Positions 28,488 to 30,452 of a stretch of 64,000 bases of DNA are shown here, in pieces (positions within the stretch are counted from its first letter, which is position 1; the number at the start of each line of letters is the position of its first letter). The notes under the pieces were generated by a model. The model had not been told where the DNA came from, made no database searches, and worked only from the letters and a program-made list of their open reading frames with translations. The stretch is from Cupriavidus taiwanensis. GTDB lineage: Bacteria; Pseudomonadota; Gammaproteobacteria; Burkholderiales; Burkholderiaceae. The DNA lies in assembly GCF_900250115.1 (NCBI RefSeq), contig NZ_LT984803.1, positions 434,001 to 498,000 of the forward strand. Reading direction: 5' to 3'. The position numbers were made by a program, and so were the translations under genes.

Positions 28488-28826
28488 AAAGCAGGCCAGG
28501 CAACCGCTGCCTGCACCGCAAGGTGCAGGGGGAGGAAAGTCCGGACTCCACAGGGCAGGGTGTTGGCTAACAGCCATCCACGGCAACGTGCGGAATAGGG
28601 CCACAGAGACGAGTCTTGCCGCCGGGTTCGCCCGGCGGGAAGGGTGAAACGCGGTAACCTCCACCTGGAGCAATCCCAAATAGGCAGGCGATGAAGCGGC
28701 CCGCTGAGTCTGCGGGTAGGGAGCTGGAGCCGGCTGGTAACAGCCGGCCTAGAGGAATGGTTGTCACGCGCCGCGCGCCGCAAGGCGGGCGGGGCGCACA
28801 GAATCCGGCTTATCGGCCTGCTTTGC
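28488..28826 (+). ncRNA. rnpB: RNase P RNA (bacterial type A)
   Basis: The catalytic RNA of RNase P, which trims tRNA 5' leaders. Universally conserved cores are present: 'GGAGGAAAGTCCGGACTCC' then 'CAGGGCAG' near 28530-28560, 'GGTAACCTCCACC' and 'GAGCAATCCCAAATAGGC' near 28654-28685, 'TGGTAACAGCCGGCCTAGAG' near 28734, and the terminal 'CAGAATCCGGCTTATCGG'. The ends pair (AAAGCAGGCC at 28488-28497 with GGCCTGCTTT at 28815-28824), forming helix P1 and fixing the boundaries. The length of about 339 nt is slightly shorter than in E. coli. Confidence 0.96.
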
Positions 28827-28883
28827 TTCAGTCATCGGCACGACCCGGCGCCCGCGCGGCACACCGGGCGGGCTAAACTTCCA

Positions 28884-29306
28884 TCAGCCTTCGACGATTT
28901 CCAGCGTGTGCGTGATCTCGGCCGTCTTGGCCAGCATGATCGACGCCGAGCAGTACTTCTCGTGCGACAGCTTGATCGCGCGCTCGACCGTGGCGGGGTT
29001 GAGATTCTTGCCGGTGACCACAAAATGGAAGTTGATGCGGGTGAACACCTTGGGGTCTTCGCCGGCGCGCTCGGCCTGCAGCTGCACGCTGCAGCCGGTG
29101 ACGTCCTGGCGGCCGCGCTTGAGGATCAGCACCACGTCATAGGCGGTGCAGCCGCCCGTGCCGAGCAGCACCATTTCCATCGGCCGCGGGGCCAGGTTGT
29201 GGCCGCCGCCTTCGGGGGCGCCGTCCATGGCAACGATATGACCGCTGCCGGTCTGGGCGACGAAGCTCATGCCGTCGGCGCCCATCCATGTTACTTTGCA
29301 TTCCAT
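28884..29306 (-). CDS. OsmC family protein (YhfA-like)
   Basis: The 140-residue protein closely resembles E. coli YhfA of the OsmC/Ohr fold: 'MECKVTWMGADGMSFVAQT', 'SPMEMV'-type segment 'APRPMEMVLLGTGGCTAYDV' and 'AIKLSHEKYCSASIMLAKTA'. The two cysteines, in 'GTGGCTAYD' and 'HEKYCSAS', correspond to the peroxidatic pair of OsmC proteins. A thiol-dependent peroxide role is therefore likely but unproven for the YhfA branch. I chose the ATG at 29306, which gives the YhfA N-terminus; codons upstream encode unrelated sequence. rnpB is convergent with it. Confidence 0.88.
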   Translation of the reverse strand: MECKVTWMGADGMSFVAQTGSGHIVAMDGAPEGGGHNLAPRPMEMVLLGTGGCTAYDVVLILKRGRQDVTGCSVQLQAERAGEDPKVFTRINFHFVVTGKNLNPATVERAIKLSHEKYCSASIMLAKTAEITHTLEIVEG

Positions 29307-29531
29307 TTTGTTCGTTCCTATGCTTTGTGTTGTCGGTTTTCGATCACAAGCGCGTGATTTCGAATCTTGCATTTCCCAGTATATGGCAACGTCTAGTTTG
29401 GGGCATCGCTGCCGATAACCTTAGAAAACCTGAGGGTTTCCTCTAGTGTGTGGGCGGGGTGACACCGACGCTGGTTTGATAAGTTATTGATTTTTAAGGC
29501 GTAAATTTGATGCCGGAAGAGCCCGGTAGCG

Positions 29532-29566
29532 TTTCGTAATACGAAATCCCATTTCGCACTACAAAT
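29532..29566. promoter_or_regulatory. Two palindromes upstream of the candidate small RNA
   Basis: TTTCGTA-A-TACGAAA (29532-29546) is a perfect 15-base interrupted palindrome. A degenerate copy, TTTCGCA-C-TACAAAT (29552-29566), lies 20 bases further, ending 5 bases before the -35 box at 29572. The form resembles IclR-family operators. The position would suit an activator, or a repressor overlapping the promoter's edge. The family assignment is inference. Confidence 0.5.
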
Positions 29567-29571
29567 TTCCC

Positions 29572-29599
29572 TTGCATCCGGGCAAACCCTAGGTATAAT
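29572..29599 (+). promoter_or_regulatory. Strong sigma-70-type promoter of the candidate small RNA
   Basis: TTGCAT (29572-29577), a 16-base spacer and a perfect TATAAT (29594-29599) form one of the best promoters in the window. The predicted start is near 29606. No protein gene follows before the terminator at 29734-29764. Confidence 0.7.
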
Positions 29600-29605
29600 T
29601 CGAAT

Positions 29606-29764
29606 CATTGAACGACGGCGCAGACAGCGCGCCAGAGTGCGAAAGCGAAGCCTCCAGCCAAGCCCCCGCACCGCCCGCCGGTCCCGCCGTCGATCTCCAA
29701 GTGTCTCCTCCACCCTCCTCCTTTGGTGGATTCAAACCCAAGCTCAACCGCTTGGGTTTTTTTT
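29606..29764 (+). ncRNA. Candidate structured small RNA with anti-Shine-Dalgarno loop
   Basis: About 159 nt lie between a strong promoter and a strong intrinsic terminator. CGACGGCG (29613-29620) pairs perfectly with CGCCGTCG (29685-29692), closing a 5' domain. CCACC (29710-29714) pairs with GGTGG (29725-29729), presenting a loop CTCCTCCTTT that is complementary to Shine-Dalgarno sequences. AAACCCAAGC (29734-29743) pairs with GCTTGGGTTT (29750-29759) and runs into eight T. A reading frame begins at a TTG at 29608 but crosses the terminator into the rplM leader, so I do not regard it as coding. I do not recognise a named RNA family. Together with the rplM leader it accounts for the 717-base gap between osmC and rplM. 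Confidence 0.6.
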
Positions 29765-29856
29765 CGCCTGAACCATTCGCGTCGGCCCCCAAGTGCGTCG
29801 GGCGGCCCATAACCGCGGCGATCGGCCTCGATCTTGACGAAAACTCAAGCCTTTGC

Positions 29857-30023: not shown

Positions 30024-30452
30024 ATGAAGACCTTTTCCGCCAAGCCTCATGAGGTAAAGCGCGACTGGTACGTGATTGACGCGACGGACAAAGTCCTCGG
30101 CCGTGTCGCCAGCGAAGTGGCACGCCGTCTGCGCGGCAAGCACAAGCCGGAATTCACTCCGCACGTCGACACGGGTGATTACATCATCATCGTCAATGCA
30201 GCCAAGCTGCGTGTCACGGGTACCAAGGAAACGGACAAGAAGTACTATCGCCATTCGGGCTACCCGGGCGGTATCTACGAAACGACGTTCGGCAAGATGC
30301 AGCAGCGTTTCCCGGGCCGTGCCCTGGAAAAGGCTGTCAAGGGCATGCTGCCGAAGGGTCCGCTGGGCTACGCGATGATCAAGAAGCTGAAGGTTTACGC
30401 CGAAGCCGAGCATCCGCACGAAGCGCAGCAGCCCAAGGCGCTGGAAATCTAA
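30024..30452 (+). CDS. rplM: 50S ribosomal protein L13
   Basis: The 142-residue protein is ribosomal protein L13, an early assembly protein of the large subunit. Typical segments are '[20 protein letters not shown]', '[20 protein letters not shown]', '[11 protein letters not shown]' and '[12 protein letters not shown]'. The length is normal for the family. A weak AGGAAA ribosome site precedes the start. It is followed after 12 bases by rpsI, the conserved L13-S9 pair. Confidence 0.98.

Follow-up and report, generated by a model that had tools for sequence, protein, structure and literature searches.

A Cupriavidus ortholog of the small RNA NcS27 between osmC and rplM, and motif-based hints of a link between RF02278 small RNAs and PHB storage

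What fills the gap between an osmC-like gene and rplM in Cupriavidus taiwanensis, what might it do, and how might it be controlled? The whole stretch of DNA analysed here, hereafter the window, comprises 64,000 nt, and a preliminary description made from its letters had read the gap as a compact, separately terminated non-coding small-RNA unit. This reading stands: the gap (29532-29764) holds a promoter, a transcript unit of ~158 nt and an intrinsic terminator (Table 1), the leader frame is not kept in relatives, and the RNA matches a known family. The hairpin with the loop CTCCTCCTTT (29715-29724) and the terminator with its eight T were found exactly as described. Neither the predicted transcript nor its 3' core was equalled in stability by any of 200 shuffles (0/200 each; z = -6.0 for the core). 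Past osmC, at 28488-28828 of the window, lies an RNase P RNA gene (RF00010, 246.7 bits).

Table 1. Features of the osmC-rplM interval, in window positions; gene names are those of the preliminary description.
Feature	Position	Strand	Remarks
osmC-like gene	28884..29306	-	conserved upstream neighbour
palindrome 1, TTTCGTAATACGAAA	29532..29546	.	left half of putative tandem operator; centre 20 bp from that of palindrome 2
palindrome 2, TTTCGCACTACAAAT (genus consensus ATTTCGCAGTGCAAAT)	29552..29566	.	immediately upstream of -35
-35, TTGCAT	29572..29577	+	predicted promoter; TTGC invariant in 30 orthologs
-10, TATAAT	29594..29599	+	invariant in 30 orthologs
predicted primary transcript, ~158 nt	29607..29764	+	start predicted 7-8 nt past -10; folding z = -5.1
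leader stem, 5' arm	29613..29620	+	partner 29685-29692; paired in 86.6% of cells, no two-sided change
leader stem, 3' arm	29685..29692	+	partner 29613-29620; same alignment basis
core sRNA RF02278, probable processed form	29701..29764	+	cmscan match 29702-29765; processing predicted from S17 and NcS27
unpaired 5' tail GUGUCUCC, putative first anti-Shine-Dalgarno seed	29701..29708	+	cf. Site 1 of S17; function by analogy
seed hairpin	29709..29730	+	stem 29709-29714/29725-29730; loop 29715-29724 CUCCUCCUUU; cf. Site 2 of S17
intrinsic terminator	29734..29764	+	10-bp stem and eight T (29757-29764, exact); two pairs with two-sided changes in the ortholog alignment
rplM	30024..30452	+	conserved downstream neighbour

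The preliminary description had recognised no named family. The Rfam check, run with cmscan, assigned the core to RF02278 (Betaproteobacteria_toxic_sRNA), a family with characterised relatives, at 70.5 bits (cut-off 50; E 3.3e-12) over model positions 1-64, that is, above the gathering cut-off and at full length. The anatomy of the family is present as well: a 5' UCUCC tail, a hairpin with a UCCUCC loop, and a terminator hairpin with a U-run. The word 'toxic' reportedly refers to growth inhibition on expression in E. coli, a criterion attributed to Kimelman in 2012, and may not be true of every member.

RF02278 is widespread around the window genome, which itself has five matches, two of them above the cut-off. 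At E<=0.001, the family was detected in 40/40 genomes of the genus sample (39 above the cut-off) and in 73/110 genomes of the order sample (45 above the cut-off), with 0/14 controls in both cases; in the family sample, 30 of the 41 genomes had it. Two further observations were made in passing. A third RF02278-like element of 45 bits (L003:1501-1566; G000:C2:2463168-2463233) lies, by eye, closely after the stop codon of a putative permease, and contigs 7, 9 and 10 of genome G029 carry five equal-scoring RF02278-like matches (39.3 bits), perhaps repeated copies.

The closest described counterpart is NcS27 of B. cenocepacia, annotated between BCAL3348a and BCAL3349 (PMC4603805, Table 3); PMC5688073 lists BCAL3348 as a gene for a ribosomal protein. 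The position of the window RNA, between an osmC-like gene and rplM, is of the NcS27 type. Because position and family agree, we identify the window RNA, by sequence, position and family, as the Cupriavidus ortholog of Burkholderia NcS27 and as a relative of Bordetella S17. The window RNA shares with NcS27 and the other B. cenocepacia double-hairpin 'toxic small RNAs' the Rfam family, two hairpins and CU-rich seeds, and with NcS27 itself also the place next to the rplM region and the short form to which NcS27 is processed; the two differ in that NcS27 measures 92 nt in all, whereas the leader of the window RNA alone comprises ~95 nt. S17 of B. pertussis is alike in its TTGCAT -35, long precursor and terminator, although it lies at another locus, glycosyltransferase/coq7 (PMC11722255), and is compared with the window RNA by its anatomy. 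S17S positions 2-28 are reported as identical across Betaproteobacteria, including Ralstonia (PMC11722255). NmsRb of Neisseria (RF02877), likewise a metabolic sRNA family, gave a weak covariance match of 27.5 bits, under the cut-off of that family (52).

The 30 best-scoring loci, from 39 genomes above the cut-off, were aligned as genus orthologs; osmC lies upstream in 30/30 and rplM downstream in 28/30. The core sRNA is invariant across these best-scoring 30, including all six pairs and the loop of the seed hairpin, an invariance of loop and structure in relatives that the preliminary description had proposed to look for. Searching named genomes for an exact 31-mer gave 93 stretches, 80 of which were examined as loci, and osmC and/or rplM adjoins all 80 of them (both genes in 66). 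Selecting loci by best score or exact match in itself favours an invariant core, and since the hairpin stem never varies, covariation is silent on the core hairpin.

The promoter, TTGCAT-N16-TATAAT, had been called strong. Its elements are present, and none of the 30 aligned orthologs departs from TTGC or TATAAT, but 'strong' is generous: TTGCAT agrees with TTGACA at 3/6 and is a poor -35, which is why a generic promoter scan lists no promoter here. The 5'-RACE-mapped promoter of B. pertussis S17 likewise has TTGCAT (PMC11722255).

The leader behaves differently from the core. The 8-bp long-range helix of the preliminary description is perfect and complete in the window alone. Its pair at alignment columns 13/109 forms in 1/25 distinct orthologs with letters there, and the remaining orthologs hold about six pairs, mostly invariant. 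In an alignment of 29 distinct rows, with the cells affected by MAFFT arm gaps in four rows set aside, 8 pairs were tested for compensatory change and 0 had two-sided changes, so that the helix was rejected as a covarying element and is better described as a variable leader stem. Leaders nevertheless folded somewhat better with their own arms than with swapped arms (mean -16.3 vs -14.2 kcal/mol, 33 distinct leaders), the advantage being clear only for L034, L018 and L102 among seven divergent cases. Ralstonia leaders measure 48 nt and have different pairings.

A coding or dual-function transcript, with a small protein read in a frame from TTG 29608 or GTG 29637, is very improbable. The TTG frame has no stop in 26/30 orthologs, and a putative ORF of 32 residues is present in S17L of B. 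pertussis (PMC11722255), but few stops are expected at the given GC content, and the peak of identity falls in the RNA stem-loop. Among the genus orthologs, the leader is 61 to 118 nt long, with all three remainders modulo 3 represented; the reading frame is therefore not kept, and on this ground a coding leader was rejected. A 5' leader or attenuator of rplM is extremely improbable. The element does lie on the same strand and upstream of rplM wherever rplM was found; however, its eight-T terminator ends 259 nt before rplM, core start and rplM are anywhere from 97 to 1085 nt apart among the 31-mer loci, paralogs with the same core lie away from both osmC and rplM, and Rfam gave no ribosomal-leader match. 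This candidate was rejected. We observe the family match, the invariant core, the kept osmC/rplM position, the terminator and the unkept leader frame directly, and consider it highly probable that the interval is the Cupriavidus NcS27 ortholog, an RF02278 member whose processed RNA would block the ribosome sites of uptake genes.

Studied relatives indicate how such an RNA might work. NcS27 is processed, and by prediction its CU-rich region covers ribosome sites; its overexpression attenuates growth, while silencing has the opposite effect (PMC5688073). S17 has a sigma-A promoter, its level is raised by Hfq, and S17L of 190 nt gives rise to S17S of 67 nt in a manner consistent with RNase E (PMC11722255). 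It represses BP2158 directly via Site 1 at its 5' end, as compensatory mutations show; of four further candidates tested, two escaped repression (PMC11722255). The window RNA resembles an S17-type precursor in its anatomy (AAGUGUCUCC). By analogy with these relatives, a housekeeping-sigma promoter would produce a ~158-nt precursor with a self-folded 5' leader, and cleavage just before GUCUCC would release a double-hairpin RNA of ~64 nt. The UCUCC tail and the UCCUCC loop could then base-pair at purine-rich ribosome-binding sites and keep uptake and catabolic genes from being translated, so that carbon uptake would be lowered once growth stops. For the window RNA, transcription, processing, use of Hfq, targets and repression are all transferred from the relatives. 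Two earlier proposals are modified accordingly in part: the ~160-nt RNA agrees with the unit anatomy but is probably the precursor of the short form, as in S17 and NcS27, and masking of ribosome sites by the loop is possible, but the loop is not the sole seed, the 5' end having been decisive in the S17 assays.

In the window's own genome, GGAGGAGACA-N0-9-ATG occurs at 15 sites, vs 1 for the permuted flank GGAGGAGAGC, a count that is weak evidence because this group may simply favour GGAGGAGACA as a ribosome site. Pfam was run on 14 of the 15 frames that follow a site, leaving out L273 (14 codons), and placed 10/14 proteins in transporter or catabolic-enzyme families: four MFS transporters (L263, L267, L271, L272), a TctC receptor, a branched-chain amino-acid permease, a Peripla_BP_6 protein, an acetyl-CoA-synthetase-type enzyme, an acyl-CoA dehydrogenase and a FAD_binding_3 protein. 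The remaining four were DegV, a YCF48-like protein, Gcw_chp and one protein without a family. Leaders with GGAGGAGAC precede L263, L265, L267 and L271. The predicted gene classes fit the published target classes. RNA-seq of C. metallidurans, according to its authors, did not detect the sRNAs already described in B. cenocepacia and B. pertussis, and the accessible part of that paper gives no coordinates for the window RNA (PMC7563307).

Control of the gene is the second question. The window RNA is a real small-RNA gene of an already catalogued kind, and what is new is a hint on its regulation, which we infer from upstream motifs. Both palindromes of the preliminary description lie where it had put them, the first perfect about its central base, the second imperfect as it stands in the window, its genus consensus being a better dyad. 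Across the genus, palindrome 1 is conserved more strongly than the flank upstream of it, and a dyad similar to palindrome 2 is found in Ralstonia loci. The pattern TTTCGYANTRCGAAA has a single occurrence in the 7.0-Mb genome; with <=3 mismatches, the palindrome pattern gave 23 sites vs 9 for the reversed control, and from these own-genome sites (exact, one; <=3 mismatches, 23) no regulon of a palindrome-binding regulator was recognised. The pair is a conserved genus-level putative operator.

Outside Cupriavidus and Ralstonia, orthologs frequently carry a different, TTGCAnYGCACAA-like dyad at the -35. It can be set beside the deduced PhaR motif of R. eutropha, YTKNTGCRNYGCANMAR (PMC12849132), and the PhbF motif of H. 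seropedicae, TG[N]TGC[N]3GCAA (PMC3206438). The 80 named loci were grouped by sequence, which placed L043 (titled Ralstonia sp.) with Cupriavidus, and L061 and L102 (titled Burkholderiaceae) with Ralstonia. The core TGCRNYGCA stands <=150 nt upstream in 32/38 named orthologs outside these two genera, vs 3.4% of dinucleotide shuffles and 31/1720 other windows of the same loci; overall, background windows contain it in 2-4% of cases. Among the Ralstonia loci, 9/11 have TGCGGTGCA, but there it falls in transcribed sequence, within the leader and 30 nt upstream of the core.

In the order sample (70 loci, 65 above the cut-off), TGCRNYGCA was found in 23/35 loci at osmC/rplM and 9/35 elsewhere (32/70). 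The PhaR DNA-binding domain PF07879 is present in 35/47 genomes tested, and with relatedness controlled in part, the PhaR-type core occurs in 32/52 loci of phaR+ genomes vs 0/18 of phaR- genomes (Fisher p 2.4e-6), background windows giving 27/903 and 6/300, respectively. Counted per taxonomic family, the contrast is 16/19 vs 0/8, with two families on both sides, and at osmC/rplM loci alone it is 23/30 vs 0/5 (p 0.0024). It weakens with one core mismatch allowed (44/52 vs 6/18) and with the 17-mer at two mismatches (31/52 vs 1/18). The family sample, which overlaps somewhat with the order sample, comprised 63 loci (4 below the cut-off) and had the core in 39/63, namely 11/20 at osmC/rplM and 28/43 elsewhere, vs 41/1109 windows. 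Many paralogs of other genera have it ~30 nt before the sRNA core, with an internal TTGC at the -35 place. Judged by motif, promoters of other RF02278 loci often carry PhaR-type sites, and many members of the family across the order may be under the control of the PHB-sensing PhaR.

The window copy itself has no TGCRNYGCA near 29500-29610. It stands at the -35, beside the palindromes, in congeners L018, L019, L020 and L034 (4/30 orthologs) and farther upstream in L028, in total 5/30 Cupriavidus orthologs vs 19/767 background windows; among named Cupriavidus loci, it stands <=150 nt upstream in 3/31, with L069 and L113 at matching distances. Because both operators coexist in some congeners, the simplest reading is that the window lineage lost the PhaR site. 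It is unlikely, in our estimate, that the two palindromes are instead a diverged PhaR operator that still places the window copy under PHB control. A relaxed core, YGCRNYGCR, derived from the S. meliloti PhaR motif (PMC12542648), does occur <=90 nt upstream of the -10 in 20/30 Cupriavidus orthologs (background 97/767), two palindromes flank the -35 of S. meliloti phaP1 (PMC12542648), and the plain core accompanies the palindromes in the four congeners above. Against this, the plain core is absent from the window promoter (the window has ten sites, the nearest at 28512), the relaxed core is at background in Ralstonia (2/11 vs 108/881 windows), and the conserved letters are ATTTCG/CGAAAT, not TTGTGC.

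In Cupriavidus, a second RF02278 paralog class (L002:1450-1560; G000:C1:3307480-3307574) has a perfect PhaR 17-mer just upstream of the -10 in 20/21 genus loci examined. The window's own genome contains 10 perfect 17-mers vs 2 for the reversed control: two precede a phasin gene, one belongs to the L002-class paralog and one lies within a second phasin gene. The first phasin is a PF09361 protein (100.8 bits; domain at G000:C1:1307165-1307461) whose gene we take to be phaP1, an identity supported by the two PhaR sites upstream. A weaker paralog of 38 bits, below the cut-off (L004:1501-1574, - strand; G000:C1:1306690-1306763), belongs to a class that lies ~135 nt past the first phasin gene's stop codon in 6/7 loci, L253 being the exception. 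A scan of L004 between phasin gene and sRNA found no promoter, and no terminator except the sRNA's own; the element, which supplies the phasin gene's next intrinsic terminator, is a candidate 3'UTR-derived sRNA.

Taken jointly, these motifs incline us, if only slightly, to view RF02278 sRNAs as the RNA arm of a PHB sensor, in which PhaR would repress, granules would titrate PhaR, and the sRNAs would shut down carbon uptake and catabolism. The output in Cupriavidus would then be split among one paralog with a perfect PhaR site, one 3'UTR sRNA behind a PhaR-controlled phasin gene, and the window copy on a two-palindrome operator, its PhaR site lost. This PHB link is the new part of the analysis and a testable one. 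A precedent in regulation is MmgR of Sinorhizobium meliloti, an sRNA tied to PHB whose promoter is bound by PhaR in EMSA (PMC12542648); it is alphaproteobacterial and likely represses phasins. A literature search found no link of PhaR to RF02278 sRNAs; the accessible parts of PMC5688073 and PMC11722255 do not mention PhaR, PHB or phasin, and in that of PMC7011215 they appear in a reference title alone. For three double-hairpin RNAs, Fig. S3 of PMC5688073 presents a 'common upstream motif', which may be the same dyad, in which case the motif, not its reading, is already in print. The B. cenocepacia authors describe the regulation of sRNA accumulation as unknown (PMC5688073), the S17 authors postulate an unidentified repressor (PMC11722255), and a 2021 review calls the role of riboregulation in C. 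necator PHB synthesis undeciphered (PMC8401924). The PhaR-type operator, missing in the sampled phaR-less genomes, is a concrete candidate for the control of RF02278; if it holds, the storage of bioplastic would be linked with an RNA regulator of nutrient uptake.

Finally, nine loci of phaR-less genomes (L182, L197, L201, L206, L209-L212, L215) share, by eye, TTGCA followed by ATATTAGATAATnCTnAT, a pattern that suggests a different promoter or regulator there.
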